This document shows, piece by piece, positions 2,364-62,940 of a stretch of DNA of 64,000 nucleotides. How positions within the stretch are numbered: position 1 is the first letter of the stretch; each line of letters opens with the position of its first letter. Source of the DNA: a virus. The stretch is from positions 64,001-128,000 of the IMG/VR virus record IMGVR_UViG_3300027509_000001. The stretch is one strand, 5' to 3'. The position numbers were made by a program, and so were the translations under genes. The notes beneath the pieces were generated by a model. That model was not told the origin of the DNA, ran no database searches, and worked only from the letters and a program-made list of their open reading frames with translations.

Positions 2364-2993
2364 TTATTTCAAATTGTTTATGCAATTAAAAAATTCGTTT
2401 CTAGTGTCAATATTCTCCTTGAATCCCCCAGACAATTTAGATGTCATCATTGTGGAGTTATGCTTTATGCCTCTCACACATGCACACAAATGGTTGGCGG
2501 ATATTTTTACTGCTACTCCACCATTCCCTTCGCAAATATCGTTTATATAATTGTGTATTTGCATCGTAAGATTTTCTTGGACTTGTGGCCTTCGAGCGAA
2601 GTAATCTACAACTCTATTTAATTTAGATAATCCAATTACCTTTTTTCCTGGTAAATACGCAACATGAGCATGTCCTAAAAAAGAGAGGTGATGGTGAGAA
2701 CAGAAAGAGTGTACTGTGATTTTTCCTTGAAAGACCATGCCGTCGTAGCCATCTAGATTATCAAATGCTGTAATTTTTGGGGGTTCGTTATAACACCCCT
2801 TTGCCAAATCGTTAACAAATGATTTTGCTACCCTTCTTGGTGTATCTGATGAATTTGGGTCGTCTCGCCAATTAATTTTCAAAGCATCCATAAAACCTTC
2901 ATAGGCTTTTGCTGCTTCTTTTATCATTTTGGCTTGATCATCTTTAGAAAGGATTATATTGGAATTAGCGTATTCTAATAGTTTATTAGACAT
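2364..2993 (-). CDS. folE: GTP cyclohydrolase I
   Basis: FolE converts GTP to dihydroneopterin triphosphate, the first step of folate and of 7-deazaguanine (queuosine/preQ0) synthesis. The zinc site is visible: Cys followed by HHH in FCSHHHLSFLGHAHVAYLP (from about residue 96) and the second Cys in HLCACVRGIKH (about residue 170). The substrate loop GLSKLNRVVDYFARRPQVQE is intact. ATG 2993 is preferred: the frame extends to 3044 upstream, but that extension is AT-rich and non-conserved, and a promoter-like element lies at 3016-3036. Product 209 residues, normal for the family. It probably serves the QueE/QueC pathway in this cluster. Confidence 0.93.
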   Translation of the reverse strand: MSNKLLEYANSNIILSKDDQAKMIKEAAKAYEGFMDALKINWRDDPNSSDTPRRVAKSFVNDLAKGCYNEPPKITAFDNLDGYDGMVFQGKITVHSFCSHHHLSFLGHAHVAYLPGKKVIGLSKLNRVVDYFARRPQVQENLTMQIHNYINDICEGNGGVAVKISANHLCACVRGIKHNSTMMTSKLSGGFKENIDTRNEFFNCINNLK

Positions 2994-3015
2994 ATAGTTA
3001 TTTTTGTTGATTATA

Positions 3016-3036
3016 AATATAATAAAAATATTTGAC
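3016..3036 (-). promoter_or_regulatory. promoter-like element upstream of folE
   Basis: On the minus strand GTCAA is followed after exactly 10 nt by TATATT. The same arrangement with GTGAA occurs upstream of the 9781-10080 gene and of the gp32-like gene. It sits 23-43 nt before the folE ATG, in a short intergenic gap. Confidence 0.4.
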
Positions 3037-3047
3037 AATACCAAATA

Positions 3048-6735: not shown

Positions 6736-8592
6736 TCAAACCCCTCTTAAATTATCGTATGCGATTATATGAGGCCTGCCTGTAAAATTATATCCTTCTC
6801 GAATACACATCTCAATAGTTGCTGGATATGTAAACAATAAAGATTGTCTATTATCTCCGGCCGGCATGACGTATGTTTTACTTTTTGGAATATTAAACTC
6901 TACCCTAAAGTCTTCTATTTCCTTTAATGCCTGTTCGCTTCCATCCCAGACTGGCTTGTAATGATAATCCTTAGATTGATAACCAGATATATTATGAAGA
7001 ATTGCTTCTTTATTCAACCGATATTTATTATGTTGTTTAATCATTTTCTCATCTACAATCTTTCCTTTAGGTGTTTTAATGCCTAACTTTGGTATTGTAT
7101 TTGAAAATTTAGGACTTAAACTATATAATCCTATTCTGCGGTCCAGTTCTAATTTATGGGAGCCTTCACTTTCAATTGTCATTACAATGCTGTTGGCAAT
7201 ACAGAAGTTATTTAATTCATTTACAATTTTCATATGCATTGTAGGCGAACCACCTGTTAGCATCATTTCTTTAATATATGGATATTTTTTGTATTCGTCA
7301 TATACATTCTGAATGCTAAATTTTCCTTTCTCTGGATGAATTGAAGTATACCAAGAATCGCAAAATCCGCCCTTTTCTCCGAACCAACAATTGTGAGAAA
7401 CTATAGATTGATGCCTACCAACTCTAACTAAATAATTATTGTATTCATTACAATGAAAATTATATGATTTATATAAAGACTTAGTTTTAATTCTCTTAAT
7501 AGATTCAATTTTAATACCATTTGTTAAAAATGTATTAACTTTCTTCAAAATAGTTTCATCATCGTGAGCAGCCATATTGATTGCCAAATATTTTGTATTT
7601 GGTAGACTTGATTTGGAATATATTTCATTTAATTCTTTATCATAATCATTCCAATTTGGTCTAAATGTTGAAACTTCTTCGCCTACTTCAATAAATTTAT
7701 TTTCGCCGTGAACCTTGAAATCTGGTACCTTTATTTTTCCCTTGCATTTCAAACTAAATTCTCCATCACCAGTAAACCATATTTGATCGTTCAGTCCTGC
7801 GGCTTTAATAATGTTCCAAAACCTCTTTTCGGGTCCGGACATGCCCTGTCCCATTTTCCATCCTAATCCATACCCGTTTTTATTTCTAGTTGAAATTGCT
7901 TTTTGAACAGTATTTGGGTTGAACATTGGATTATTCGCTTTCATATTGTCGGATATCCTGTCATATTTGTCTTTTATTTCAGTTTCCGATAATAAACCAT
8001 CCGGGTGTAACGTTCCTCTTTTTTCTAATCGTCTTTCATGCGTTAATTCCAATAATCCAGATTCGTCCCCAAAATGTCTCGTATTTGGATGCGAATGCGT
8101 TTTTTTAGCAATATCCGAATTAAACATTGGATTATATTTTCGCATGCGTCGAGAATTTCGCATTTTTCCAGAACAATGTACTAATTCATCAGTTTCTAGT
8201 AAATTTGCAGCCATTTTCCATCCACGAGTTGTAAGTACTGGATGCTCTGGTGTTACATTGAAATGTTGGTGGCCATTTTTTAATTTAACTACTACATATT
8301 CGCTTATGTCATTTATTTCTATGTCATTTATAGTGGTTTCTTGAATAGACGATGATAATTCATCCCAAGCTAAGATTCGATCTCCTACTTTTACATCCCA
8401 CATTTTTATACCTTTACCATTAGCATTAAATACTATTGGGTCCGCCCTGCCAGGAACTTTCACATGGCATCTATGTGTACATCCGGAAGTCCGAACTACG
8501 ATTGTGGGCATTCCTGCGCGGCTTCCTTCTCCCTGTACGGCTGGGTAAATTTCAACTATTGGCTGTATCTTGTTTAAATCCATTTTTTTCAT
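6736..8592 (-). CDS. queE: QueE-like 7-carboxy-7-deazaguanine synthase, interrupted by an intein
   Basis: QueE is a radical-SAM enzyme that turns 6-carboxytetrahydropterin into 7-carboxy-7-deazaguanine. The extein starts VEIYPAVQGEGSRAGMPT, then GCTHR. After the intein comes CWFGEKGGFCDSWYT, then MMLTGGSP (SAM-binding GGxP) and a C-terminal half ending in GYNFTGRPHI. Removing the 360-residue intein leaves 258 residues, close to normal. The spliced cluster reads C-x3-C-x8-C rather than the usual C-x3-C-x2-C. The alternative start is ATG 8583; the first 41 bp overlap the upstream gene. The intein must splice for the enzyme to work, since its +1 Cys is a predicted iron-sulfur ligand. Confidence 0.9.
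   Translation of the reverse strand: MKKMDLNKIQPIVEIYPAVQGEGSRAGMPTIVVRTSGCTHRCHVKVPGRADPIVFNANGKGIKMWDVKVGDRILAWDELSSSIQETTINDIEINDISEYVVVKLKNGHQHFNVTPEHPVLTTRGWKMAANLLETDELVHCSGKMRNSRRMRKYNPMFNSDIAKKTHSHPNTRHFGDESGLLELTHERRLEKRGTLHPDGLLSETEIKDKYDRISDNMKANNPMFNPNTVQKAISTRNKNGYGLGWKMGQGMSGPEKRFWNIIKAAGLNDQIWFTGDGEFSLKCKGKIKVPDFKVHGENKFIEVGEEVSTFRPNWNDYDKELNEIYSKSSLPNTKYLAINMAAHDDETILKKVNTFLTNGIKIESIKRIKTKSLYKSYNFHCNEYNNYLVRVGRHQSIVSHNCWFGEKGGFCDSWYTSIHPEKGKFSIQNVYDEYKKYPYIKEMMLTGGSPTMHMKIVNELNNFCIANSIVMTIESEGSHKLELDRRIGLYSLSPKFSNTIPKLGIKTPKGKIVDEKMIKQHNKYRLNKEAILHNISGYQSKDYHYKPVWDGSEQALKEIEDFRVEFNIPKSKTYVMPAGDNRQSLLFTYPATIEMCIREGYNFTGRPHIIAYDNLRGV
7390..8469 (-). other. intein in QueE with Vsr-like homing endonuclease domain
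   Basis: 360 codons from Cys42 (CHVKVPGR...) to the terminal His-Asn before Cys+1. Block A/B-like features are the splicing Cys1, VKVGDRILAW and VTPEHPVLTT (block B T-x-x-H type). The C-terminal block is NYLVRVGRHQSIVSHN. Between them are two NPMFN repeats (NUMOD3-like DNA-binding motifs) and a PD-(D/E)XK/Vsr-like nuclease region: GPEKRFWNII, then VPDFKV and KFIEVGEE. It therefore looks like a full, mobile intein. It sits just before the second Cys of the radical-SAM cluster. Confidence 0.9.
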
Positions 8593-10143: not shown

Positions 10144-11883
10144 TTAGCCATCACATGCAGAGCATTCCAATAAACTTCTATTAAATATTTGGGCACCATT
10201 AGTACTATGTTGATAATATAAAGTCTTTATCCCTTCTTCATGTGCCAATTTAATTAAATTGTGAATATCATTTGCAGTTGCGTGTGGCGATATCATTAAA
10301 TTTAGGGACTGGCCCTGATCGATAAATTTTTGCCTTTGCGCTGCCAATTTAATTATATCTACTTGCGAAACCTCTTCATATGTTTTAAACACATCCTTTT
10401 CATGCTTCGTCAATTGTGTTATATGCTGAACGCTTCCATTATTTTCTAAAATACTTTGCCATATAGCTCGATGATTTAAATCTTTTTTAGTTAACAATTC
10501 GACTAATAATGGATTTTTATAGGTTGTTTGATTTTTTGCGTTCGCCTTTTCATGGTAATTGCTCTTTATAACCCCAATTCCTTGCGATACGCCGCCCATT
10601 ATTTCCCCTGACGACTTGTTTGGTGCCACGGCCAATCTACTTGTAAAACGCTCTCCATAGCCTTTAAGAATTTCTGGTTCTCCTAGTTCTTTAGCTAGTT
10701 CTTTAGATGCTTTTAAAGATTCTACATCCATTCTTTTAAAAATTTTATGGTTTACTTGATAAGATTCTATCGACCCCCATGAAATCATATTTTTTTGCAA
10801 ATAACTATGAAATCCTAATAAGCCCAAACCTACTGCGCGGTGTTTATTTGCAAAATTCATAGCCTTTTTAAACCCTGGTAAATTTGTGGCTAATTTAATA
10901 TATTCTTCCATTACTGCATCTAACATAATCATTCCCAACCAAACTAAATCTTTTGGCCAATCGTCATAATGCAATGCATTCAAAGATAATAAAGCACATG
11001 CAAATTCAGTGTCCTTGTCACAATACTCTATTACTTCTGTACAGATATTACTGGTGAAGATATGCATGTTGTTGTCTTTATAAACTTGAGCCTTGCCCTT
11101 ATTGCAATTATCTTCAAATAAAATATAAGGAAATCCCTTTTCAGATCTGCGTTTTATTAATTTTGCATATGCCGACATAAGTTTTGTATCGTCAGCAGTC
11201 CATTCATTAGGTGATATCATTTTCAATTCTTCCATTCTTTCCATAACTCCAGCTGGAATTGTAACACCAGTTGTAATATTTTGAATTGAATATCCTATAT
11301 CTTCTTTAGGATCACCGTCCATTCCAATGTTTAAAAAACTATCTATGTCCGCATGAAGTATTGAATTCCAAGCTGTTAAAAACCCACGTCTCATTCCACC
11401 TTGTGACATCTTTGCTATTTTAGAAGCGTAACTTTGGATCCAACTAACTTGACCAGGCGATGTACCAGATTTATCTTTGCCATATTTTTCACCAAGACCT
11501 CTAATAGGTGTAAAATTTTTGGCTGTGCCTGCACCGTTCTTTGCTAACATCGACATTTCATATTCACCATAAGCGATATCGTTCATCGTATCTTCTACCA
11601 CTCCAAAATTACAAGATATTGGCAATCCTTTATTTGTTCCAAAATTACAAGATATTGGCAATCCTTTATTTGTTCCAAAATTACTTAATATTGGAGATGA
11701 AAACGATATTAAATTTCGACTACAATAGTCGTATATTTTATCAGATATTCCCTTTCTTTTTGTTACTGTTTCAAAATGATCTGCTATTTGCCTATACCTC
11801 TGCTCTACAGTTATTTCATTTCCTATATATCCACGAGACAATGTTGTTCGTATATCGTCTGTTACCCAATAAAATTTTTTCAC
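10144..11883 (-). CDS. nrdA: class I ribonucleoside-diphosphate reductase large subunit, with a tandem duplication at the active site
   Basis: NrdA reduces ribonucleotides to deoxyribonucleotides together with NrdB. Active-site elements are visible: the redox Cys in GLPISC, the thiyl-radical region SNICTEVIEY (N-x-C-x-E), the second redox Cys in FACALLS, the radical-transfer tyrosines in KTLYYQ, and a C-terminal CSACDG pair for re-reduction. At 579 residues it is short and lacks an N-terminal ATP cone. The 12-residue block NFGTNKGLPISC occurs twice in tandem, so the redox cysteine appears at both residue 79 and residue 91. The start is GTG 11883. It follows nrdB by 5 nt. Confidence 0.92.
   Translation of the reverse strand: MKKFYWVTDDIRTTLSRGYIGNEITVEQRYRQIADHFETVTKRKGISDKIYDYCSRNLISFSSPILSNFGTNKGLPISCNFGTNKGLPISCNFGVVEDTMNDIAYGEYEMSMLAKNGAGTAKNFTPIRGLGEKYGKDKSGTSPGQVSWIQSYASKIAKMSQGGMRRGFLTAWNSILHADIDSFLNIGMDGDPKEDIGYSIQNITTGVTIPAGVMERMEELKMISPNEWTADDTKLMSAYAKLIKRRSEKGFPYILFEDNCNKGKAQVYKDNNMHIFTSNICTEVIEYCDKDTEFACALLSLNALHYDDWPKDLVWLGMIMLDAVMEEYIKLATNLPGFKKAMNFANKHRAVGLGLLGFHSYLQKNMISWGSIESYQVNHKIFKRMDVESLKASKELAKELGEPEILKGYGERFTSRLAVAPNKSSGEIMGGVSQGIGVIKSNYHEKANAKNQTTYKNPLLVELLTKKDLNHRAIWQSILENNGSVQHITQLTKHEKDVFKTYEEVSQVDIIKLAAQRQKFIDQGQSLNLMISPHATANDIHNLIKLAHEEGIKTLYYQHSTNGAQIFNRSLLECSACDG
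11611..11682. repeat. perfect 36-bp tandem duplication inside nrdA
   Basis: Two identical 36-bp units (11611-11646 and 11647-11682), preceded by a 9-bp partial unit (11602-11610). The unit is a multiple of three and keeps the frame, repeating 12 residues that include the redox-active cysteine. Confidence 0.97.
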
Positions 11884-15345: not shown

Positions 15346-16384
15346 ACGAATTTAATTTAGTGAAAGTATTAAATAACCATCTATCAACATCCTTTATAAT
15401 CGTATACAATTTATCTTGCATAAACATTTTTTTAAATGCTACTATATCAAGAGTTTCTATTGGTCCATTTAATTTATTAATTATCTGCATTTTCTGATCT
15501 GCTGATATATCAACGTCTTCAAGTTGCATTAATTTATTATTCAATATTAAAGTTTCTTCGGCTGCTACCATATCTTTGTAAACTTTAATATTGGAGCCAT
15601 TATCTATTTCCTTTTTTGCATACTCTAGTAAATTTGTAATCTCAATATTCTTGTCATTGATAGTTGGAAATCTTTTTTGTAATGTTTTTAGTCCAACTCC
15701 CTTCACGCCAGGAATATTGTCAGAAGAATCTCCATCAATAACTCTATATAATAAATAATTTTTTGGATGCAATCCCCACTCCTTAACAATTCTATCTGGA
15801 GTATATAACTTCTTTTTAACTGGGCTCCAAATCCTTACTTGGTTATTGGCTAATTGTATAAAATCTCGATCAGATGAAACAATAGTAATTTTATTATCTA
15901 CTCCTTCATAATACTGCCTGGCAATATATGCAATAGTATCATCTGCCTCAATGTTGTCTAATGCAATAAAAGTGACTGGCAATACATTAATGTATTCTAA
16001 TATTCTTACTATTTGCCGACTCATTGAAGCTCTTTCATCTTCTAGATTTTTAAATTCGTCGTGCCTATTAAGGCTTTTTCTTACTTTTCTATTTGCTTTA
16101 TAGTCAGGATACAGTTTTCTTCTTCTTGCAGATCCACCTTTTCCATCAAATACAACAATACACCTAGTCGATGCAAATTGCCTAATATTAGCGCCTATAG
16201 AGCGTAGAAATCCTACGGTGCCTCCTACATGTTGCCCATCATCGTTTAATGCTGGTACAACTGCAAAAACCCGTATAAATGTATTCAAACCATCGATAAT
16301 AAGGACATGAGAGTCCCTATTATCTTCAGTTTTTCGGTCTGATATAAATGAACTAAAAAGATCTTGTATCGTTCTAGTTATCAT
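15326..16384 (-). CDS. 5'-3' exonuclease / flap endonuclease (FEN, RNase H-like)
   Basis: Removes RNA primers and flaps during lagging-strand synthesis. The conserved acidic clusters of the FEN/PIN fold are all visible: LIIDGLNTF near residue 29, VVFDGKGG with RRKLYPDYKANR around residues 98-115, LDNIEADDTIAYIA around residue 148, VSSDRDFIQLA around residue 168, and DGDSSDNIPGVKGVG (helix-hairpin-helix region) around residue 215. 352 residues; T4 RNase H is 305. It overlaps uvsX by 4 bp and the helicase by 20 bp. Confidence 0.9.
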   Translation of the reverse strand: MITRTIQDLFSSFISDRKTEDNRDSHVLIIDGLNTFIRVFAVVPALNDDGQHVGGTVGFLRSIGANIRQFASTRCIVVFDGKGGSARRRKLYPDYKANRKVRKSLNRHDEFKNLEDERASMSRQIVRILEYINVLPVTFIALDNIEADDTIAYIARQYYEGVDNKITIVSSDRDFIQLANNQVRIWSPVKKKLYTPDRIVKEWGLHPKNYLLYRVIDGDSSDNIPGVKGVGLKTLQKRFPTINDKNIEITNLLEYAKKEIDNGSNIKVYKDMVAAEETLILNNKLMQLEDVDISADQKMQIINKLNGPIETLDIVAFKKMFMQDKLYTIIKDVDRWLFNTFTKLNSYVKKLR

Positions 16385-18021
16385 CCTTCTTCGTTAATTG
16401 CTTCTTCATCAATAACAATATCGTCAATACCATAATCCTTATTAATTTCGTATTTCATAATATATTTTTCATGTACAATGTCAAGTATCTGCGATTTAAG
16501 CTCTGGGTTTCTATCGACGATTGTTGCAAAGTCTTTAGATTGAAATTTAAGCTCTAATTGCCCTTCTGTGACTTCTCCTTCTTCGTCAATAATGTCTAGT
16601 GGTGAAGATAACTTGTAAGTATACCACGCTCCAGAAGATTTGACAATCTTGTAATCCTTTAGTATACTAAGCCACGATCCATAATTATCAATTCCACTTG
16701 AATAATAAATGTCATATTTAACTTTTTTCATTGGAGGGCCCAACCTATTCTTGACAACGCTGCATTCAGTTTTTACCCCTACGATATTATCAATGCCATT
16801 CGATTTGACTTTAATTTTGCCCATAGATTTCAATCTAACTCGTACTGATGAGTGAAATGGTAATCCCTTTCCGCCAGATGTCGTGTTATGATTTAATCTA
16901 CCATTAGCTAAATACGTATGTGCATCAGCTACCTCAATGTCAACTACTGGCATTTTCTTCTCGACCCGCTTGAAATCTGGATGGTTTTGTAATTCGATTT
17001 GCTTTCCATCTTCTATAATTATATGATTGGCAGTTCCTTTTAATTTACCATCAGTATAATAATAATCTACTGGAGTTTTAATAATAAAATTAATAATCGG
17101 TTTATATACAAGTTCGCCATTAACAGAAGTTTCTATTTCTATATTTTCCGAAGTCAAATCGGCTATAATATATGGTTCTCCTTCCATTGCTGTCAAGTCT
17201 CCAGACTTTATTTCTTTGTATACGGATATCAAATCTGGAAGTCTAGTACTCATTAAATTAAATAAAGACTCTGTCCAAATATGTCCGGCAGTATTTCTCA
17301 ATTTTACTTCAGTTGTATGTGGATCAACACAATATTTGTCTCCAAACATTACTCCCATTCTAACCCGCAATTGATTTGTAAATATTAAACAAATCTTTTG
17401 TCTGGCTATTTTGTTTGTAATTTTTCGCAATGCTTTAGAAATGATAATTGCTTTAGCTGTTGCATATCCATCTTTACCATGTTCCGAAGCCTGTTCAACT
17501 TTTGTTGTGGCGCCCATCACTGAATCAACTACTATTGTAACTAACCTGTCTTTGTCCTTTTTTCGAACTTTTTCAATTATAATATCTATTGTCGTAAAGG
17601 CGTCTTCAATTGCTTCCAATGGAACATATAATAGTCTTTTTATGTCTACTCCAATTGCCTCTAAATATGCTTTTGATACTGCTGCTTCTGTATCAATGTA
17701 TACGGCTACTCCGCCTTTTTTCTGGGTATTTTTTAGAGCATAAGCTGCTAATAATGATTTACCCGATGCTTCCAATCCTGTAATTTCAGTTATTCTACCT
17801 ACTGGCCACCCGCCGTTTGGTCGGTTAGCAATTGCTAAATCCAGTATGTCTAATCCTGTTGGTACAAAATCTGTAACGTTGCTAACGTCATCTTCTGATA
17901 AAAAATAAGCTGATTTAAATTCGGTTGCTTTAAATTCTTTATCTAACGAGCTGGCAATATCCGCTGCCAGCTCTAAGATGTTATCAGTCTTTGCTTTAGT
18001 TTTTCTTTTGACTTTACTCAC
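16381..18021 (-). CDS. uvsX: UvsX/RecA-family recombinase interrupted by a mini-intein
   Basis: UvsX forms filaments on ssDNA and performs strand exchange for recombination-dependent replication. Walker A is GLEASGKS (residues 82-89); YIDTEAA follows, then Walker B-like VTIVVDSVMG and the L2-loop region IFTNQLRVRMGVMFGDKY. An intein begins here and the extein resumes TTSGGKGLPFHSSVRVRL, which matches RecA loop 2. Without the intein the protein is 397 residues, nearly identical to T4 UvsX (391). The C terminus is acidic. It follows the gp32-like gene by 3 nt. Confidence 0.93.
   Translation of the reverse strand: MSKVKRKTKAKTDNILELAADIASSLDKEFKATEFKSAYFLSEDDVSNVTDFVPTGLDILDLAIANRPNGGWPVGRITEITGLEASGKSLLAAYALKNTQKKGGVAVYIDTEAAVSKAYLEAIGVDIKRLLYVPLEAIEDAFTTIDIIIEKVRKKDKDRLVTIVVDSVMGATTKVEQASEHGKDGYATAKAIIISKALRKITNKIARQKICLIFTNQLRVRMGVMFGDKYCVDPHTTEVKLRNTAGHIWTESLFNLMSTRLPDLISVYKEIKSGDLTAMEGEPYIIADLTSENIEIETSVNGELVYKPIINFIIKTPVDYYYTDGKLKGTANHIIIEDGKQIELQNHPDFKRVEKKMPVVDIEVADAHTYLANGRLNHNTTSGGKGLPFHSSVRVRLKSMGKIKVKSNGIDNIVGVKTECSVVKNRLGPPMKKVKYDIYYSSGIDNYGSWLSILKDYKIVKSSGAWYTYKLSSPLDIIDEEGEVTEGQLELKFQSKDFATIVDRNPELKSQILDIVHEKYIMKYEINKDYGIDDIVIDEEAINEEG
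16885..17331 (-). other. mini-intein in UvsX
   Basis: 149 codons from Cys231 (CVDPHTTEVKL) to His-Asn before Thr+1. The splicing blocks are recognisable: Cys1; GTANHIIIEDGKQIELQNH near the block B/F region; and VVDIEVADAHTYLANGRLNHN at the end (block F/G). There is no room for an endonuclease, and no LAGLIDADG, HNH or Vsr-like motif is seen. It interrupts the DNA-binding loop 2 of the recombinase. Confidence 0.9.
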
Positions 18022-46244: not shown

Positions 46245-49200
46245 TTATATATCAGTGTCGTCGGATAAAACCAAAGATTCTTCATTTAACATACTTATTC
46301 CATGCAAATCTTTTAATGGAGTTTCAGTAATAAATGTAGATTTAATTGCATTTGATTTTGCAGATACGTATGTTTGTGGTATCGATTTAATGGCTTCCTT
46401 TTTCATTTTCAATCCACGTTGTAGTGTTTTGGAACCATCTGGATCTTCTCCGTTTATATCGTCTTGCTTTCTTCCAAATTTAGTTTTTTTAGTTGGACGT
46501 CCTGGATTATCTTCTCTTTTATCTCCTTTGTATAAATTCTTAATATTACTCGGATCGTGGGGTTTTGCCAATTTATCTACATCTCCTTTTTGAGCGTCCT
46601 TTTTTGCTTCTTCGTTTTCTTTATTCTCTTGACCCTGAGTCCAGGCTGCATATGCCATGTCGTGTGGTGTTCCGAAGGATCTACCTGTTTTTTCTGGATC
46701 ATTCCCTTCGGCTTCAATTTGCGCTTCTCTAAATCCGCGTTTAAGATCTTCTATTACTGCACTTTCTTCTTTTTCAATTTCTTCTGGATCCAGACTAAAT
46801 AAGTTAGTATAGACATATTCTCTAGAGAATAATTTACTTTCTAACATTTGGGTTACTAATGACATTTTCTCATTAAGCATATCTATTTTCTGTCTTTCAT
46901 AGATTATGCTAGGCGGGGTTAATGATATAGTAAAACTTAATAAATCTTCGTCTTTAAATCCTTGAGTATATAAATGTACATATGCCATCTTATATAACTC
47001 TCCAACAATCACTTTTTGAATTCTTTCTACTGTTCTAGCGAACCTAATATCTTCTGCTGCGAGAACTGAATTATGTATTATAACTCCAGCTGACGTTCCG
47101 AAGTTATGATATTTGTCAACAGTTATATCGCATGTATCAATTGAATTCGACTGCCATTCAACTCTAACCACTTTATGATTTAAATATCTTGGCTCGTATT
47201 TTCTGTAATTTTGCATAAATGCTTTATTCTCTAATGCCAATGGCATGCAATTGAATATGAATTCAATTTTATCTACATTTAAATAATTCCATAATTTATT
47301 TAATACATTTCGAGTAATTCCTAATGATTTCTCTAAATGAGAAAATGAATTACAAGATTCGGCTGTTTCAATTAATTGTTTATAGCTTATATTTTTATAC
47401 TTTGATTTACTTGGAGTTTGGTACGACTCCGGATGATTTTTCTGATATTCAATTCTACATGACGATGTGCAAAATCGTGTTATATCTTTACGATAATGAT
47501 GAATTTGGTAGTTAATTGAACAATTATCACATGTAGAAAATAGATCCGGTTTTTTATTGGCTGGTCCGTTGTCTTTTACCCATTGACCAAGTTTAGGACC
47601 AGATATCTTTCCACCGATTAATCCACCCATTCTACAATGTATCTTCTTTAATGGAGATTTATTATATGCGATCATGTTTGGATTTTTCTGCATATCAGCA
47701 GCATGAGTGGCATGAAATTGTCTATGCTCCCAAAAAGACATTGTACCATCTAAATTTTCTGGATTGTTGTTTCTGCCATTGTAATCAATATGGTGGAGTA
47801 CATTTGTTCCCTCCTTTATATTAAATTGATCTCCTACAATTCGATGTACTAATTTATATTTTCCATCGCATGGTTGATAAACTGTCGTGTAATGGTCTTT
47901 ATAACCGCCATTACTTAGATATAAGGGCATCAATGATAGATTTGGAGTTAAGTTTTGCGCTTCTACCCAAAGTCCATCACGGGTAAGGAATTTGTGGTCT
48001 GGTGTACATTCTATAAACTTATCATTATCTAACCAAACCTTTACAGTTTGAGTATTCATTCTAGTGAAGCCAGCCCATGTTATTTTGCCCGCTTTAATTG
48101 TATTATCTGATTCGTCAAGTGAGTAAGTGTAGTTAATTATTCCATTTTTATAATCTTCAATTAACTCTCGTACCGTTTTAGTTTCTCCACTAATTAACGG
48201 TATTTCAGTATCCGGGCTTATACATTTCCCTTCCACATCGGCATCGTATCCGAGGTATGCTTTTGGTATTTTAAGATACGCCATCATTTTATTTCGAAGA
48301 TACTCAATATCGGTTATTGCACCATCATTACTTAATCCATCTAATGTATTTATTTCTGTACTCGATTTTCCACCTCTAACCGGCAAATAAAAATCTTCCA
48401 TTGCATTCATTAGATTATATCTTAAGTTATACGATCCATCGTCATTAACATGTGGTATTTTTTTATTAGCATTAATTATTTCTTCGATGTGAGAGTCTAC
48501 TTCTTCTGGTGGAATAAGCCCTACGTCAATCTTAAATACCCTTCGTTCTGGCGCTCTCATTATTCTATGTAATAACATTGCATCTTCCATTAATAATAAC
48601 TGCTTAAATGTTTTCCTAGAACCTTCTACCATTGATTTACCATAAGGCAAATAATTAGTATCACTTAATAATCTAAAATGTGAAACTTCGTATCTTTCAA
48701 AAATATTTTTATTTAACTGAGTATATCCTTCGCCCTCATACACAAATACAGTTCGCAGATCTTCTCCGTGATTCTCTCTTCTTCTCATTAAAGATGGATG
48801 GACTGGTAACGCATCCACTAATCCAACTTTTGGTTGAACATCATGCAATAAAAACATGTCTCCGTTTTTACATAAAGCTCTTGCCCAATGCCATAAATTA
48901 AATTCAATATTAAGTACGTCGTAAAATAAGTTATTGAGTATTTTCTTTATATTTTCATTCTTAGTAGTAATACTCAATAATTCCCCATGAACATTCTTAG
49001 TAGTGGATTCATCTGCATATACATCTAATGCACCAGATAGAATTGCATCAGAGTCCATTAATTCATAATCAGAATACAATTGCATTCTAACTGCCTCTAT
49101 ATGCTCTTGAGTAGAATTTATAGAAGACCATCCAGATTGATTGTATGCTTTTCTTAAGCGTCGATATCTACTATATCGGGTTTGCTTATTACCGACAGCC

Positions 49201-49301
49201 TGTGTTTTGTCTAGGTCAATAAGTTTTAATCGATTTCCAGATGTCTTTGTTAATACAAGTTTTCTAGAAAACAAATTTATTAAAGTGTCGCGTAATGCCA
49301 T
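46245..49301 (-). CDS. gp20: portal vertex protein, gp20-like, interrupted by an intein
   Basis: Dodecameric portal through which DNA enters the head and leaves into the tail. The extein begins with NLFSRKLVLTKTSG and has SGWSSINSTQEHIEAVRMQL, YDLMDSDAI-like YELMDSDAILSGALDVYADE, LLLMEDAMLLHRIMRAPERR, VFKIDVGLIPPEEVDSHIEE and NKMMAYLKIPKAYLGYDADV; after the intein it resumes SVLAAEDIRFARTVERIQKV. Removing the 385-residue intein gives 633 residues (T4 gp20 is 524), with an extended charged C terminus. It follows the terminase gene by 26 nt. Confidence 0.93.
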   Translation of the reverse strand: MALRDTLINLFSRKLVLTKTSGNRLKLIDLDKTQAVGNKQTRYSRYRRLRKAYNQSGWSSINSTQEHIEAVRMQLYSDYELMDSDAILSGALDVYADESTTKNVHGELLSITTKNENIKKILNNLFYDVLNIEFNLWHWARALCKNGDMFLLHDVQPKVGLVDALPVHPSLMRRRENHGEDLRTVFVYEGEGYTQLNKNIFERYEVSHFRLLSDTNYLPYGKSMVEGSRKTFKQLLLMEDAMLLHRIMRAPERRVFKIDVGLIPPEEVDSHIEEIINANKKIPHVNDDGSYNLRYNLMNAMEDFYLPVRGGKSSTEINTLDGLSNDGAITDIEYLRNKMMAYLKIPKAYLGYDADVEGKCISPDTEIPLISGETKTVRELIEDYKNGIINYTYSLDESDNTIKAGKITWAGFTRMNTQTVKVWLDNDKFIECTPDHKFLTRDGLWVEAQNLTPNLSLMPLYLSNGGYKDHYTTVYQPCDGKYKLVHRIVGDQFNIKEGTNVLHHIDYNGRNNNPENLDGTMSFWEHRQFHATHAADMQKNPNMIAYNKSPLKKIHCRMGGLIGGKISGPKLGQWVKDNGPANKKPDLFSTCDNCSINYQIHHYRKDITRFCTSSCRIEYQKNHPESYQTPSKSKYKNISYKQLIETAESCNSFSHLEKSLGITRNVLNKLWNYLNVDKIEFIFNCMPLALENKAFMQNYRKYEPRYLNHKVVRVEWQSNSIDTCDITVDKYHNFGTSAGVIIHNSVLAAEDIRFARTVERIQKVIVGELYKMAYVHLYTQGFKDEDLLSFTISLTPPSIIYERQKIDMLNEKMSLVTQMLESKLFSREYVYTNLFSLDPEEIEKEESAVIEDLKRGFREAQIEAEGNDPEKTGRSFGTPHDMAYAAWTQGQENKENEEAKKDAQKGDVDKLAKPHDPSNIKNLYKGDKREDNPGRPTKKTKFGRKQDDINGEDPDGSKTLQRGLKMKKEAIKSIPQTYVSAKSNAIKSTFITETPLKDLHGISMLNEESLVLSDDTDI
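47070..48224 (-). other. intein in the portal protein with HNH homing endonuclease
   Basis: 385 codons from Cys360 (CISPDTEIPLISGETKTV) to His-Asn before Ser+1. Splicing blocks: Cys1, ECTPDHKFLTRDG (block B), and VDKYHNFGTSAGVIIHN (block F/G). The endonuclease is of the HNH type: VLHHIDYNGRNNNPENLDGT, then EHRQFHATHA. A Cys-rich zinc-finger-like segment follows (FSTCDNCSINYQ with FCTSSCR). It appears complete and potentially mobile. Confidence 0.92.
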
Positions 49302-49327: not shown

Positions 49328-50917
49328 TTATAATAGCCAACGGAAAGAAACGGTTTCTTTGCCTACTTTTCTTGAATATGGGTCGTTTTTAATTGAATTA
49401 GGCTTATGAACGCCTTTAAATGTTTTCCGTAACGTCTTTCGATGTACATCTATTCCTATTTGCCTTAAACGCAATGCCGTATCTTTAATAAACAAAAATA
49501 TACCCAATGCCATAACTAAATCATCATTATATCCTGGTGAAGCTTGAGCTTTTCCATTTCTCCATTTAAATACAAATAACTCTCCAATAGTTCTAGAAGA
49601 TTTAATTATTACTGCTCTGTCTCGCATATGTATTTCTATCTTGGATATCATAATTGGACGGGTTCTGCTATTTGTACTAAATCCAGGGATCATGTCTTCT
49701 TTAGATTTTAGATCATACATTTTAGCTAAATGAATATTGGAATCTAAGAAAGGATCTAATCTATAACTATAATATAAATTATCATAACCAGAGTCAAGTA
49801 CCGTTTGAACTGTGCTCCAGCCTATATTTAAATTTTCTATTACTAATAATGCATTATTCCATTCAGTGGCGGCTGCTACTAACATTTTACCAAATACGTC
49901 TGTTGGTACCTTTCCTTTATATTCTGCAACTTGCTCTAGTTTTTCAACATCAAATACATGAAATGTAGAATAATCAGTTCCGTCTCCCCTTGATACATCT
50001 GCCACAATTACGTAACTTATTGAATAATCTGGATAATTCCACATCCAATAATTATTATCTATACCCCGCATTTCCTTTGGAGGTTCTACCATATTAGTTT
50101 TATAATATTTAAGGATATCTCCTTCTACGACAGTATGTCCAGATGAAATGAAGTCACAATCGCATTCCTGGGCTGCTTGTTTTTCTCCCAATAACACCGT
50201 CTGCTGGTTTCTCCACGTTTGATCTCTGTCAGGATGTAGGTCCCATTTAAGGTTTATTGGATTGAATACTTCTAGACCTTCTGGAGCTTCTTGAGATTCT
50301 GCTTGTTCCCATAACTTATGAAACAAATTACCTACACCATTTGGAGTAGACAATACTATTGCGGATCCACCTGTTGAAAGTGTCATTTGCGCACCTGTCC
50401 AAATATGATCTATATTATCGACGAAAGCTGCTTCATCTATTATTAACAATGAAAGTGCCTCAGAACGTCCAGCTGTTTTTGATGCAGATACTGCTTTTAT
50501 TGAAGACCCGTTTGCAAATGAAATTGACATCTCATTATTTTTAACCAATTCAGTTGTTTCTTTTAACCAACTTGGTAAATTGGCAAACATTACTTTAACC
50601 TTTTGTACCAAGTTAATTGCCACTGATTGGTTGGTTGCAATTACAAGTATTTTAAAATTTTCAGCCGAAAGCATTTTATATAAAGAATATCCAGCAGTTA
50701 AGGTTGATATACCCATTTGTCTAGATTTTAAGATTATATTAAATCGATTATCTAGAAATTCAGACAAGGTACGTTCTTGAAATGGATATAAATTAAAATT
50801 AATCTTACCTTTCATTGGATGTTCAATTTTACAATACTTCTTCATAAAATGAACTGGGTCAGTCATTGATCTTGACTTTTCTGCCCTTATAATATCCTTA
50901 ATGCTTTTTTGTGCCAC
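49328..50917 (-). CDS. gp17: terminase large subunit, gp17-like
   Basis: ATP-driven packaging motor and headful nuclease. The ATPase domain has a variant Walker A, LKSRQMGIST (residues 63-72), Walker B LLIIDEAAF around residue 162, and coupling motif LSTPNG around residue 190. The nuclease domain has VIVADVSRGDGTDYSTF around residue 305, LLVIENLNIGW around residue 357, and the last acidic cluster YNDDLVMALGIF around residue 469. 529 residues (T4: 610). The start is GTG 50917. No small terminase (gp16) was recognised with confidence, although the gene at 51553-52161 is in a suitable place. Confidence 0.94.
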   Translation of the reverse strand: MAQKSIKDIIRAEKSRSMTDPVHFMKKYCKIEHPMKGKINFNLYPFQERTLSEFLDNRFNIILKSRQMGISTLTAGYSLYKMLSAENFKILVIATNQSVAINLVQKVKVMFANLPSWLKETTELVKNNEMSISFANGSSIKAVSASKTAGRSEALSLLIIDEAAFVDNIDHIWTGAQMTLSTGGSAIVLSTPNGVGNLFHKLWEQAESQEAPEGLEVFNPINLKWDLHPDRDQTWRNQQTVLLGEKQAAQECDCDFISSGHTVVEGDILKYYKTNMVEPPKEMRGIDNNYWMWNYPDYSISYVIVADVSRGDGTDYSTFHVFDVEKLEQVAEYKGKVPTDVFGKMLVAAATEWNNALLVIENLNIGWSTVQTVLDSGYDNLYYSYRLDPFLDSNIHLAKMYDLKSKEDMIPGFSTNSRTRPIMISKIEIHMRDRAVIIKSSRTIGELFVFKWRNGKAQASPGYNDDLVMALGIFLFIKDTALRLRQIGIDVHRKTLRKTFKGVHKPNSIKNDPYSRKVGKETVSFRWLL

Positions 50918-50925
50918 CTAAACCC

Positions 50926-51273
50926 CTACCTAATATTACCTAAGGCAAAACCTAATCCCAAAAAGAACCATGGCTGCTCGTAGAATTTTTTATTGCCATT
51001 TATATTTAATGATTTGAGATCTAATGCAATGCCTTTGTACATTTCCAATTGCCTCTCTTTGAGAAATTCTATTTTATCTCGCTGATCTCCTAATAGTATA
51101 TAATTTTGTATTTGCCGTTCTTGAGAAGATATAATTTCAGATTGCAATTTAGATTTCTTCTCTAAATAAATAATATATTGCGCTGCAAACCTTATATCTC
51201 TGTCTGATAATGGTTGTGAATTAATATATAATGGGATCAGAAATAATAATATTAATATTACTATCCTTTTCAT
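50926..51273 (-). CDS. membrane/exported protein, possible spanin-like partner
   Basis: A 115-residue protein with a signal peptide (MKRIVILILLFLIPLYINSQ), a charged coiled coil (residues about 30-85) and a hydrophobic, Trp/Phe-rich end (EQPWFFLGLGFALGNIR). There is no lipobox Cys. The gene starts inside the 3' end of the next upstream gene (53-bp overlap in another frame), an arrangement reminiscent of Rz/Rz1 spanins. It lies just before the terminase gene. Lysis function is inferred, not shown. Confidence 0.5.
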   Translation of the reverse strand: MKRIVILILLFLIPLYINSQPLSDRDIRFAAQYIIYLEKKSKLQSEIISSQERQIQNYILLGDQRDKIEFLKERQLEMYKGIALDLKSLNINGNKKFYEQPWFFLGLGFALGNIR

Positions 51274-51556
51274 ATTGTTGTGCCCTTCTTTTTATTATCT
51301 GTATTGCTTCATCTAAAGGTAACGAGTCGATGCCGATCGAATTCATGCTATCCTTTAAAATCTGAATATTTTCTTTTTGTTGTTCAATTTTATCTAATGT
51401 TATAATTAGATTATTTTCATTATTTTTTATGACAGGTGACAATTCTTCTGCTTTGTCTATATCAGCTTGAATTCTTTTTGCATTCATCTTTTGCCATATA
51501 GTGTAAACTGAAAGGGCAATTAATAAACCAAATAAAAACATTATAATATATTTCAT
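51221..51556 (-). CDS. membrane-anchored coiled-coil protein, possible i-spanin-like
   Basis: A 111-residue protein: one N-terminal transmembrane helix (MKYIIMFLFGLLIALSVYTI) followed by a charged coiled coil (AEELSPVIKNNENNLIITLD, KIEQQKENIQILKDSMNS). This is the topology of inner-membrane spanins. It overlaps the upstream gene by 4 bp and the next by 53 bp. Confidence 0.5.
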   Translation of the reverse strand: MKYIIMFLFGLLIALSVYTIWQKMNAKRIQADIDKAEELSPVIKNNENNLIITLDKIEQQKENIQILKDSMNSIGIDSLPLDEAIQIIKRRAQQYEKDSNINIIISDPIIY

Positions 51557-52161
51557 AAATTTTCTAATTCCTCGAATACGTATTCTTTGTATTCTTTGTA
51601 TTCTTTGATTATCTTTTTAGCTAATATTTCATTGCCAGCCCAATCTTCGGTTACTCCAGCTTTTCCACTATACGTCGTTTTAGTAGAAATATCCTTTTCT
51701 AATTCCGCTATATACTCGTCCGATTCTTTAAAAAATGAAATTGCGTTGTCTGTTAAAGATGTTTTTTGAAAATCATCCCAAGTTCCATTCAATTTCATTA
51801 GATCTTCTTGTTCAATAGAACATTGATGACACATGCCCCTATAGGCTCTAAATTTCCTATCAATCCACGTTTTCTTTTTTAACTTACATGTGGGTTTACA
51901 ATTTGGATATGAATTAAGAAATTCTCTGGCCTTGTCTATTGCCGCATAGTTTGGAGAGCGTTTGACCCGATATCCCTGCCTTTGTTCCCAGATTGCAGTC
52001 ACCTTTCCGTCTGCATCTTTCTGTTCCCATTTTTCTCCTACTTCTCTAACTTTGCTTTTTTCGGCTGCATCTTCTACACCTTGGTAACTAATAGATGTTT
52101 TATTTTGCGATACGTGCTTTCCAGACTTTATTTTTTGTAATCTTTCTAAATTAAATCCCAT
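51553..52161 (-). CDS. hypothetical zinc-binding-like protein next to terminase
   Basis: A 202-residue charged protein. Residues about 93-120 contain two cysteine pairs, CKPTC and CHQC, separated by a basic segment (WIDRKFRAYRGM), which could bind zinc. A helical C-terminal third ends KEYKEYVFEELENL. Position near the large terminase would suit a packaging role, but no small-terminase signature is recognised. No known family. Confidence 0.55.
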   Translation of the reverse strand: MGFNLERLQKIKSGKHVSQNKTSISYQGVEDAAEKSKVREVGEKWEQKDADGKVTAIWEQRQGYRVKRSPNYAAIDKAREFLNSYPNCKPTCKLKKKTWIDRKFRAYRGMCHQCSIEQEDLMKLNGTWDDFQKTSLTDNAISFFKESDEYIAELEKDISTKTTYSGKAGVTEDWAGNEILAKKIIKEYKEYKEYVFEELENL

Positions 52162-52203
52162 ATAAAATTCTTTGTTATATATAGGATTCTTTAAAGGAAT
52201 TTA

Positions 52204-55023
52204 TTAATTTCTTGAGTATCTGTCATATCCCAAGATGAAATTAACAGGGGCAAATAATCCAGTATATTTATATAAATTATTATTCCATTCAAATACTACT
52301 CCTTCAGTTGGTTGCATATTTTGTGGTCCGCCTATTGTATTTATTCTGGCTATTTCCCTTTGGATTTTAGGATCAGAAGTGTCTTCGCTTAAGCGATTTA
52401 TATTATCCATAACATTTTGTTTAGAACCTTCTCCAAACGCCCCTAGGAACCCTGTACAATTTGATAAATATTCATTGGCTAATTCTAAAAATATTGGTTC
52501 AATTGAATCTTTTAATTTATGCATTATAGCACTAATCATCGTTTTATCCATTTCCGATATTAATGGGGTATATTCTCCAAAATTCTTATTAGTTAATCTC
52601 GTTGATTTATCTTCGTATACCCATCTATTAACCAATGCCTGTTTAAGCATGTTATTAAGAGGTTTGAGCGATTCTTCTACTACTGCCTTCATATAGTATT
52701 CATAATATTCTCCAAGTGTATTAGAGTCGCTTAAATTAGCGTCTTTCATTTTAGAATTTACTAAAGATTCATAATATGATAATCTTTCAGTTAAATTATC
52801 TGGGGTAATATATTCAATAACATTTGGAGTAATAATTTCATAATGCATTCCAAGTGAATTATATTTCGGTATTTGAATTGGAGTATTTGATATCATATTC
52901 CATGATGCATCATACTCTACTAAACCTAAAGCCACTATATATGGTTTGGTATATTCAATAACGTTTTGCGTTGAAGGATTTAATATTTCGACATTTAAAT
53001 ATTTACTGCCATTCTCAAATAGATTACTATCTTTAAAAGCATGTTCAAGTTGAAGTGCTGCGCTTTTAAATGAGTTTTGCAACCAGTCCCTATCTGAAAA
53101 TTTGTCTGCTAACTCTTCTATTGTCATGGGGGTTTTCAAAGTACTTTTATTTCTGGCTGCATATAATTTATTCTCTTTAATCGTTACCATTAAATTCTGT
53201 CCATCTAGTTTTTCGTACGTCTTTGCTTCTAAGTTACCAGACAAAGAACTAGAAAACAATTCTTTAATTTTACCAAAAGTTAATGATAAATTATTATATG
53301 GATGATTTAATCTTCCAAATGCTCCTCCCATGAGTAATAGATTTTGACTGTTATTAATATTTTCTTTAAATTCAACGTTTGGGTATGTATTGCACAAAGT
53401 TAACAATTTTTTAATCAACAAACTAATTTTTAACACTTTTATTTTATCTGTAGGGCTTTTGTCTTGTCTAGCTACTACTCGGTGATGACCATCCAAAATA
53501 TAATAATCTTTGGAGCATATAATAGGTTTATTAAACACATCGTTGCCAGAATCTGAGATTGATACTACCTTATCAACATTAATTTCTTTTTGTGTTAATT
53601 TTAATTGACTTATTTCTATTTCTTCTATTTTATATTCTATTTTTTCAGTGTCTAACCACTCTTTAAATTTATCTAAATCTTCAATTTGAGGCATTTTAAT
53701 TCTTTTAATACCAAGAGATTGTTTGACATTAATAGTATCTTCTACATAAATCTTAGGCGTTGCTGAACTAAAATTCTTTTTTCGCATTATAGTTTTCGCA
53801 ATTAAATCATATTCCAATGTATTTGGGTCCCATTCAATTACAAATGGTATATTTAATGCACTAGATTTATCAACTAAAACTGCTTCGTCGCCGGGGTCTA
53901 ACCTGTCTAATTGACCTTTTTTGTTTTTTAAAGCCTTTTTAAATAAATTTCGAATTTCCTCTATATCTATTTCTGGAGTATTTCGGTTATCGTTTGACCT
54001 ATCTAAAAAATGTGTCTTCATAAGGTTAATGTCAAGTCCTATGCTCCCATATATTTGATCTAAATATTTTTCAACATTATAAAGTTGACTTCTTGATATC
54101 TTTTCAACAAGTTGATATCCACTGTTATTGGATAATTTAGTAACATGATCTGACCATTTTAGTTCCGAATCAATTTTTGATACAAATTTGTCATAATCAG
54201 TACCCGATCCTGTATTATTATCTCCAGTTGGAAAGTAAGATGTTGTTGTTGGTGGGCCATGAGGATAATCAGTTTCTGGGGCATGCGCTTCTATAGAATC
54301 TATATCCCCTATTAACCAATTCATAACTTTCCAATTTGCGACATTTTTTGATTTATTGTCAATCGATATGTAATACGATTTTAAATCATTGTAAAATGCC
54401 CTTGGTCCGTCATCTGGCGCTGTATAATTTCCTTCTACTATATTCCTAGCTATTTTTTCTTGTATAGCAAATTTTTTTTTAATTATATTATGTGCTAATT
54501 CTTCGTACCAACCAAATATTTCTAAAAATTTATCTTTAGTAATTCCAGGCAAATTTTCCCTAATATAAGTTCCTGAATAATTTTCTACTGATTCTATTTG
54601 TATATGAGGAGCCACAATAACGTATCCATGTTTGTCGTAAGATTCCAATTTAATATCTTCTGAATATGGCTGGAAATAAGACAATGAACCATCTGCCTTT
54701 GTCCATTTGAATCGAGAAGAGTCTTTTTCTCCTATCATAAAAATAGCAGATATATTTGGATCATATTTTTCTAAAAATGTTGGACGATATGGAATCCTCT
54801 CTTCTTTTATATAATTTGAATTAATTCCGTATCCATTCATGAATACTGCTTTTTCTTCGAATGCAAATGGAGAATTTGGAAATTCAATTTTATTTGACGT
54901 AACTAAGTACGAATTTTCTTTTCCAAATTTATTCTGCATCCATTTAAATGCCTCATTATGATGTTTACCAAACAATTGGAAACGTCCTGGATATATAGCG
55001 ACTATTTTATTATTTTTATTCAT
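52204..55023 (-). CDS. three-part protein: nucleotidyltransferase-like domain, ParB-like motif, polynucleotide-ligase-like domain
   Basis: A 939-residue protein from ATG 55023 (frame open to 55032). Part one (residues about 5-190) resembles cytidylyl/NMN adenylyltransferases: IVAIYPGRFQLFGKHHNEAF (GRFxxxxxxH) and YSGTYIREN (the S/T-x-x-I-R motif). Part two has YYILDGHHRVVARQ near residue 510, the ParB/sulfiredoxin-type motif. Part three (about 580-940) carries ligase nucleotidyltransferase motifs: YEKLDGQNLMVTI (KxDG) near residue 605, YAARNKSTL, YLNVEILNPST, and TEGVVFEWNNNLYKYTG near the C terminus. It sits in the virion region between fibre and terminase. Substrate unknown; RNA/DNA repair or NAD-related chemistry are possible. 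Confidence 0.7.
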   Translation of the reverse strand: MNKNNKIVAIYPGRFQLFGKHHNEAFKWMQNKFGKENSYLVTSNKIEFPNSPFAFEEKAVFMNGYGINSNYIKEERIPYRPTFLEKYDPNISAIFMIGEKDSSRFKWTKADGSLSYFQPYSEDIKLESYDKHGYVIVAPHIQIESVENYSGTYIRENLPGITKDKFLEIFGWYEELAHNIIKKKFAIQEKIARNIVEGNYTAPDDGPRAFYNDLKSYYISIDNKSKNVANWKVMNWLIGDIDSIEAHAPETDYPHGPPTTTSYFPTGDNNTGSGTDYDKFVSKIDSELKWSDHVTKLSNNSGYQLVEKISRSQLYNVEKYLDQIYGSIGLDINLMKTHFLDRSNDNRNTPEIDIEEIRNLFKKALKNKKGQLDRLDPGDEAVLVDKSSALNIPFVIEWDPNTLEYDLIAKTIMRKKNFSSATPKIYVEDTINVKQSLGIKRIKMPQIEDLDKFKEWLDTEKIEYKIEEIEISQLKLTQKEINVDKVVSISDSGNDVFNKPIICSKDYYILDGHHRVVARQDKSPTDKIKVLKISLLIKKLLTLCNTYPNVEFKENINNSQNLLLMGGAFGRLNHPYNNLSLTFGKIKELFSSSLSGNLEAKTYEKLDGQNLMVTIKENKLYAARNKSTLKTPMTIEELADKFSDRDWLQNSFKSAALQLEHAFKDSNLFENGSKYLNVEILNPSTQNVIEYTKPYIVALGLVEYDASWNMISNTPIQIPKYNSLGMHYEIITPNVIEYITPDNLTERLSYYESLVNSKMKDANLSDSNTLGEYYEYYMKAVVEESLKPLNNMLKQALVNRWVYEDKSTRLTNKNFGEYTPLISEMDKTMISAIMHKLKDSIEPIFLELANEYLSNCTGFLGAFGEGSKQNVMDNINRLSEDTSDPKIQREIARINTIGGPQNMQPTEGVVFEWNNNLYKYTGLFAPVNFILGYDRYSRN

Positions 55024-55063: not shown

Positions 55064-58000
55064 TTAAGAAGTTTTTATTATTGTTAATCCACCACCATTC
55101 TCTGCGGATCCTGAAATGGTGTCAGCGGTTGAACCCGACCAAGTTATTTTTATTTCGTCTTCAGCTGATAATTCCACCATATGCTTTAATTTCATATATT
55201 TTGATCCATTGATAGAATCGGCCGATTTAATTGTTGTAAAACCTGCGCCAGTGTCTACTTTTATGTTGTATGTAGTATCTCCTAAAAATGTTCCGAATGC
55301 ATCAAAGTCAATTAAATAATCGCCATCAAATGGAACTACATGAACATCTCCATTTAAAAATGATATATTTGCTTCTGTTCCAGTTGATGATTGCGATGAC
55401 GTATCGTACCCATCATTAAATAAAGATGATCCTACAATTCTAAGAATAGATGGCTCTCTAACATATAACCTATTTTGTCCCAGTCCAGTCCAATTCCAAA
55501 CGGTTATGGCGGCCCATACGGCTGTAGAAGTTGGAGTATAAGTATATGTATGTATTTCCCAATCTGTGTCTACTGCGCCATTTTCATACCAATTTGTTTT
55601 AACTCTTGTATACCCTTGCACTTCCACTGGCTTATCTCCATTACCAAGTCCAACTTTATTTGCCGGAAGCTCAGAGTCATATTCTGCCATTCTTAAATAA
55701 ACACCATTTCCAGAGGTTATATTTGATTTTATTGCGATTGATATTTTCCATGAATTGACACTATCTTCGTTAACTCTAAATACTGGAAATGATGCACAAT
55801 GTTTATTATCAGTGGAACCATTAATTGTTAATGCCCTTTCATTTACATCGTAATATACATTCGTATATACAGTGGTTTGAAATGGTAAAACATCATATGG
55901 CAATGTAATAAGTCCAATTGGCGCTCTAGAGAACGAGAACGTAACTGGATTATTTGCTGTAGTGGGTATAGTTGAATTAAAATCTTCTACAAAATTAATT
56001 AACTCTAAACCCCATGTGTATTTATTGACTCCTTGATTAACTACTTCATCTATCTTATATTTATACCATCTGTCTTCAGATACTTTGAACATTATTTCGT
56101 CACCTTCTTGAACTTGATGATAATAATTTGATCTATTGACGCCATCTGTATCATTTACATATAAAAGTAATCCATCGGCTAATGAAAAATTATTTGCGTC
56201 ACCACTAGTAGTGACAGTCCTGTCTGTCAATAATGCATATCTTCCTTCCCCAGAGGCTTCGCCAGTTGTATCTAAATCGTCGTATGTAAACGAAATACTA
56301 AATCCGCTAATAGCGTCAGGACCCGAGCTTCCATCTGCTCCGTTAGTTCCATTTATACCGTCGGTTCCGTCCTCTCCTACAAATTTTGACCATTCATAAT
56401 CAGCGGCAGTTGTTCCTTCAGTACCAGTAGATTTATTATATGCTATTCCTATATATTTTCTTGTTCCTGGATCTCCGGTTGTGAAATTTGTTGCACCTGC
56501 TATGTCGTCTGCATATGCTATCCATGTATATTTTTCTGGGGCGTCGGCACCGTCGTTTCCATCCGTTCCATTAGTGCCATCTGTTCCGTCTGACCCTTTG
56601 ATTAATTTCCACGTATAGTCTGCTTCAGTTGATGACTCAGTTAATCCAACATATACACCAAGATAATCTCCTGGTGTTGATCCATTGCTTGAAGTGAAAT
56701 TTGCTCCATTGTCATCTGAATATCTAATCCATATACTATTTCCATCGGCGCCATCGTTTCCATCATTACCCTCGTCTCCAGCCAACGAAGCAACCCATTG
56801 TTCTTCAGTACCAACAAATCCATTTAGAACCGCCAATTCATACGCGGATTTTCCTGCTGTTTGTACGTCATCTAATGCAATGTCACCATTAAAATTTAAC
56901 CCATATATCTGAGATTCTTGTGTGGCCTTTTTATTATTTTCATTTAAATAATTTATTTGGAGCGACAATTCGTTGTCCTTTTTAAACGAACTAATTGGTA
57001 TTTTTAAATTAACATGATTTGAAGAATATCCCAATTCATTACGAGGACTTAATCTTAAATTAGAAAGTGACCAATTACTAGTATTTCTGGATTGGAATTT
57101 AATTTTAATATTTGCATCTTCTAATAATTTAAAATACAATTTAATATTTTTTAACAATGCACCCGTCGAATGTTGAATAGAACCTATATAAGTCCAGCCC
57201 GCTATTTTTAAAGGAGCTACCATATTCCTAGGATATTCAATATCAACTTGTACATCAGTCGATGAAACATATACATCAACTTGAGATGTTTTTGGATTTG
57301 GGTCTAGATCATATGCATCGAATTCTATTTTATATTCTGTATTTTTATGTCCCTCAATGGCAAATTGGTCTTTTAATGAAAGAGTCCAAGAATCTAATGC
57401 CTTTTCTTCTGTATTTTTAAATGTAACACCAGTAGGAAATTTTTCTGACATTACATGGCTTGAATTGGATTCATGGGCTATATCCCAATAAGTATTATAA
57501 TCTTCAATTGTTGCTAGATCCCATAAGGGCTTTTCTTCTATTTGCAATTTAGTCGATATAAGACTTTGAGGATCGACTAATAAATTTTGCGAAGGTATTT
57601 TAAATTTTCCTAAATTTACAGATTCTCCAAATGAACCATATAATTTATATGACAATTCAACTTGAGTGACATTACCAGCTAATGGTTCAATGTCTAATAA
57701 ATCAATTTCTATAAAGGACTCTTCCGATCTTTCTTCTAGTGTTACATCTGATCTGTAATACGTTATTTCGTAACTTCCATGGGTTAGCTTTGAATAATTT
57801 CGAGTCGATTTTTCTCCACGAGTATTTATGTATTCTAGCTCATATGTAAAAGGCTTATCTAATATAAAAGTTTTAGTATCTAAAATATCTATAACTCCAG
57901 CTTCAAAAACAATTCCAGTTGGTGATATATAATCTGGATGAAAATCTGGAAACTCCAACGACTGTTCAATGTTACTTAATGATATCCTTGCACCTATCCA

Positions 58001-58765: not shown

Positions 58766-58776
58766 TTAAGGACCCT

Positions 58777-58787
58777 GTTTATAAATA
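58777..58787 (-). promoter_or_regulatory. TATTTATAAAC element
   Basis: Same 11-nt motif as at 28671-28681 and 34841-34851; 11 nt before the fibre ATG. Confidence 0.35.
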
Positions 58788-58793
58788 AGTATT

Positions 58794-62883: not shown

Positions 62884-62940
62884 GTTAGTTGTTTGTTGAG
62901 TTAAGCTAATATAATAAAAAAATAGCGAATATCCAAATTT

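Follow-up and report, generated by a model that had tools for sequence, protein, structure and literature searches.

The window analysed here is a stretch of 64,000 nucleotides (positions 64,001 to 128,000) of the virus record IMGVR_UViG_3300027509_000001, which spans 188,518 bases. At 6736–8592 of the window, a single open frame of 618 codons, with neither stop nor frameshift, encodes a 618-residue precursor that is recognized by QueE profiles and contains an intein. The gene and all of its parts described below lie on the minus strand. Removal of the intein leaves a 258-residue QueE. The N-extein, delimited by alignment with 68 intein-free homologs, comprises codons 1–41 (8470–8592) and ends in RTSGCTHR. 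The C-extein comprises codons 402–618 (6739–7389), starts with CWFGEKGGFC, and is 56% identical to the QueE of Flavobacterium phage immuto.

Identification of the host protein as QueE is supported by profiles and by the modelled fold of a homolog. The profile phrog_2076, described as QueE-like radical SAM, matches the precursor at E 2e-37, and TIGR03365 matches it at E 3e-10, a score below the cut-off of that model with the insert in place. A profile built from 40 homologs and searched with hmmsearch matches the solved QueE structures 5TGS (E 1e-11), 6NHL (E 3e-7), and 4NJG (E 5e-4). The top Foldseek matches in the PDB to an AlphaFold2 model of an intein-free homolog (pLDDT 85) are the B. subtilis and E. 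coli QueE enzymes. PDB matches to Tako8 were set aside as WD-repeat look-alikes of the stretch GIKMWDVKVGD.

Anatomy of the intein and its splice site

The intein occupies precursor residues 42–401 in frame (7390–8469), and runs for 360 residues from CHVKVPGRAD to QSIVSHN. These limits agree to the base with those of the preliminary description, and exact excision restores QueE. All of the residues of class 1 splicing are present. Cys1 (precursor Cys42, 8467–8469) is the splicing nucleophile, block B reads TPEH (Thr73 to His76, 8242–8253), and the intein closes with His359–Asn360 directly before Cys402, the +1 residue. The Hint fold is recognized in two parts. The N-terminal half covers about residues 1–98 (8176–8469), and the C-terminal half (7390–7497) holds block F (LYKSYNFHC, with a cysteine at position 340) and block G (VSHN). 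Searched against the full-length precursor, the Pfam model PT-HINT exceeds its cut-off (E 8e-8), and with the two halves joined it aligns over 123 of 137 model positions (E 3e-10). Three general models of inteins, PF14890, TIGR01445, and TIGR01443, are silent on the precursor, so the intein is divergent. Its closest N-terminal relatives found, at 28–32% identity, are the helicase inteins of Vibrio phages K391 and CP-T1 and of Pseudomonas phage MR14; these occupy a different host protein and site (DE/C...HN/CHHV, with slashes marking junctions here and below) and lack a similar nuclease region. Block F of class 1 inteins usually carries an aspartate. In our motif reading, asparagine stands at that position, which counts against a homing intein, whereas a codon usage close to that of the phage itself (cosine 0.956) counts for one. 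A single-sequence AlphaFold2 prediction of the intein alone was uninformative (pLDDT 34).

The insertion falls between Arg41 and the following cysteine, where conservation of the protein is highest. Excision joins Arg41 to Cys402 and restores the radical-SAM motif GCTHR/CWFG. This motif is uninterrupted at the splice site in all 68 homologs fetched from IMG/VR that cover it. In the numbering of the excised protein, His40, Arg41, and Cys42 are invariant among these 68, and in 69 of 69 sequences when the excised window protein is included. In the alignment of the 40-homolog profile with 5TGS, GCTHRC pairs with GCDYSC, and the third cysteine of the homologs pairs with that of WCDS. Cys38 (8479–8481), invariant in the homolog alignment and at position −4 from the splice site, is thus the first cluster ligand, Cys402 (7387–7389) the second, and Cys411 (7360–7362) the third. 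Because of this alignment and the QueE fold of the homolog, the +1 splicing cysteine doubles as an iron–sulfur ligand, as first proposed. The spliced protein would carry CX3CX8C and its homologs carry CX3CX7C, both longer-looped than the CX3CX2C enzymes. The extra residue is a lysine; within 7360–7389, next to the splice site, the C-extein carries this lysine and reads GGF where nearly all homologs have GE-GGW. The further proposal that unspliced QueE is unable to assemble its cluster follows by inference, because its ligands lie 360 residues apart.

The middle of the intein is likely a homing endonuclease, judged from its position and context. A putative nuclease insert at about residues 205–318 (7516–7857) contains the motifs PEKRFW, VPDF, FIEVGE, and NWND, by which it resembles a Vsr-type fold. 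It had been described as Vsr-like with NPMFN repeats. The repeats stand: NPMFN occurs twice, at residues 113–117 (8119–8133) and 180–184 (7918–7932). The first resembles NUMOD3 by eye only, and the Pfam NUMOD3 model has no match in the intein. The Vsr class fares less well. Profile libraries leave the insert unmatched at E ≤ 10, including by Vsr/DUF559 and EDxHD models, and the class is weakly suggested by a marginal Smith–Waterman alignment (Z 3.4, with 1 of 500 shuffles scoring as well) to a Vsr-like homing endonuclease gene of the same phage, itself weakly matched by DUF559. In that alignment, Glu214, Asp250, Glu261, and Asp275 can be placed, and Asn274 stands where the other enzyme has histidine. 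EDxHD/Vsr-like homing endonucleases such as I-Bth0305I, together with the same-phage gene, share with the insert the order of a glutamate, a PDF-like aspartate, a second acidic strand, and W-x-D. In contrast to them, the insert is internal to an intein, matches no profile, and has asparagine for the expected histidine; the latter two features count against a homing intein. Searches for relatives of the nuclease region in viral contigs, genome contigs, phages, and plasmids returned nothing informative.

Distribution, pathway genes, and other mobile elements

Intein-free queE alleles, which the preliminary description had proposed looking for, exist: the 68 site-covering homologs all lack the insert. 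Among named phages, immuto and Cellulophaga phage phiST encode the same enzyme without an intein, 52–57% identical over the extein, with queE in queD–queE–folE neighbourhoods. Among the fetched homologs the intein recurs only in contig IMGVR_UViG_3300005647_000013, whose sequence does not differ from that of the window over 7854 bases. This contig may represent the same virus assembled a second time, and the two are perhaps not independent samples. Apart from it, searches of viral contigs, genome contigs, phage records, and plasmids turned up no relative of the intein as a whole, and this counts against a homing intein. Pattern scans of viral contigs gave no other QueE intein ending in HN before the first or second motif cysteine. 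The preliminary description knew of no described QueE intein, and this agrees with a non-exhaustive search of the open-access literature, 50,697 phage records, and viral contigs. An RNA intron was rejected, as the window has no Rfam match within it and the frame reads through. One contig, IMGVR_UViG_3300009433_003150 (L008:1-20), starts in its queE, 7 bases ahead of the codon for the homologous second cysteine; an assembly break caused by a mixed population was considered, but the position is probably coincidental because the first bases of the contig encode the N-extein (HR).

The phage encodes the surrounding pathway, which bears out the proposed tie of the host gene to DNA modification, firmly for FolE, QueD, QueE, and QueC and weakly for the DpdA-like step. 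FolE, a GTP cyclohydrolase I, lies at 2364–3044 of the window on the minus strand (PF01227, E 2e-49). QueC lies at 2–811 on the same strand, its frame open at the window edge (PF06508, E 6e-18). QueD is a clear match at 54190–54648 of the virus record. A TGT/DpdA-like protein of 422 residues at 62690–63958 of the record (L076:18690-19958) has a DSGGFQ motif and matches the NCBIfam DpdA model NF041059 at E 7e-4, with PF23859 and PF01702 silent. It is possibly a divergent type of DpdA, and its nearest relatives, at 30%, are proteins without annotation from Pseudomonas jumbo phages of the PA5oct type. Elsewhere in the window, at 11602–11684, the gene for the ribonucleotide reductase large subunit contains a perfect 36-bp tandem repeat in 2.3 copies, which duplicates in frame a Cys-containing segment, NFGTNKGLPISC.

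At least three further inteins, unremarked previously, reside in the same phage, in clamp-loader, portal, and UvsX/RecA-like genes. The clamp-loader (gp44/RFC-like) gene, on the minus strand at 50519–52877 of the record (L076:6519-8877), is fractured by a split intein. The N-terminal half ends CLLEGTLV...TAEHKW..., the C-terminal half starts MELEQIKIKS...THN/CDFL, and a TnsA/NUMOD3-type endonuclease frame sits between them. The portal-like protein (window 46245–49301, minus strand) has an intein of several hundred residues (K/CISPDTEIPL...IIHN/SVLAAED) with an HNH-like stretch, HHIDYNGRNNNPENL. The UvsX/RecA-like recombinase (window 16381–18021, minus strand) has a short one with no obvious nuclease (KY/CVDPHTTEV...LNHN/TTSGGKG). 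DNA polymerase B, on the minus strand at 56930–62336 of the record (L076:12930-18336), is broken before its YTDTDS motif into two frames. Between them lie a GIY-YIG/NUMOD3 homing endonuclease gene and a Vsr-like (DUF559) one, and no clear intein ends were seen there. Given the other inteins of the phage, one more in its QueE comes as no surprise, and the reading as mobile DNA is strong.

Splicing and its possible control

The best explanation, held at a probability of about 85%, is a class 1 intein that splices in cis and entered by homing a phage queE gene whose spliced product is functional. Splicing would be carried out post-translationally by the Hint domain. An N–S acyl shift would begin at Cys1, the N-extein would be passed on to Cys402, and cyclization of Asn360 would yield QueE with an intact cysteine motif. 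The precursor itself, with its ligands split, is expected to have no catalytic activity. The nuclease in the middle of the intein, active or decaying, would probably spread the element into empty queE alleles, for which the invariant GCTHRC codons would offer a stable homing target. Mobility is anticipated along with splicing, and splicing in a reducing cytoplasm would be effectively constitutive. A homing intein with constitutive splicing is the most likely form of this account.

Conditional splicing is unlikely, yet of the alternatives it deserves the most weight. In the precursor, Cys38 and intein Cys1 (Cys42) re-create a CX3C motif (C38-THR-C42) that had gone unremarked. A Cys38–Cys1 disulfide or a metal bound at this pre-splicing CX3C would disable the first step, so that QueE would become active, and the DNA modified with 7-deazaguanine, only in reducing, iron-replete cells. 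The additional Cys340 in block F is in keeping with such control. MoaA, too, is a radical-SAM protein. According to reviews, splicing of the Pyrococcus abyssi MoaA intein is stopped by a Cys(−3)–Cys1 disulfide (PMC3922620, PMC10663303), and in the mycobacterial DnaBi1 intein a different, internal disulfide controls splicing (PMC6195587). The MoaA intein resembles that of QueE in having an oxygen-sensitive host enzyme and an N-extein cysteine near Cys1, and a redox gate has been proposed for it (PMC10663303, PMC3922620). It differs in that the partner cysteine is at −3 and the host gene archaeal, while the phage QueE intein would have its partner cysteine at −4, one residue away from the described position. 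With this precedent, redox control here would be no new principle. The radical-SAM inteins of NF038136 likewise have a cysteine at −3, preceding the third motif cysteine. Cys38 gives no evidence of selected control, however, because the enzyme itself requires it. Sibling inteins that would allow a test of conservation are lacking, and the cytoplasm of a phage-infected cell is normally reducing. The stronger proposal, that the intein at the second radical-SAM cysteine forms a metal or redox checkpoint through its nucleophile completing CX3C, delaying QueE and timing hypermodification of the phage DNA, is distinctly doubtful.

Degeneration of the intein is improbable. Such an element would splice poorly or only cleave, leaving the phage with little QueE of its own and reliant on the queuosine-pathway enzymes of the host. 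The replacement of the usual block F aspartate, an orphan nuclease without its histidine, and the extra lysine and GGF beside the site, in place of a near-invariant GGW, would all suit this reading. The 618-codon frame has nevertheless stayed open, the splice-junction residues are all kept, the remaining conserved QueE positions are largely kept, and the phage retains the complete pathway. An assembly or annotation artefact, such as a chimeric insert or a chance fusion of frames, has practically no likelihood; although a single population carries the insert and the intein has no close relatives, the insert is in frame, its exact junctions at either end fall on splice residues of an intein and within a conserved stretch, 68 homologs are empty, and an identical insert is found in another assembly.

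The closest parallel to a cis-splicing, homing-acquired intein at this site is the family NF038136, an intein-containing radical-SAM protein of the Rv2578c family. Its intein also splits the cysteine motif, with the +1 cysteine a cluster ligand, and its profile shows weak similarity across the QueE-intein junction (E 9e-5). Mapping through intein-free mycobacterial alleles places the NF038136 site before the third motif cysteine (GCSHACRY/CFARP), whereas the QueE intein precedes the second. The element in QueE is real but of an ordinary mobile kind, at a new position and in a host gene for which the searches gave no earlier report. QueE joins the genes known as intein hosts, and the second cysteine becomes a second intein position that splits a radical-SAM cluster motif. 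The phage provides a test case for whether inteins in iron–sulfur motifs are sensors of redox or metal state or merely target conserved codons, with an easy readout in the 7-deazaguanine content of the DNA and its protection from restriction. For the phage, the intein might render the activation of QueE sensitive to oxidation.
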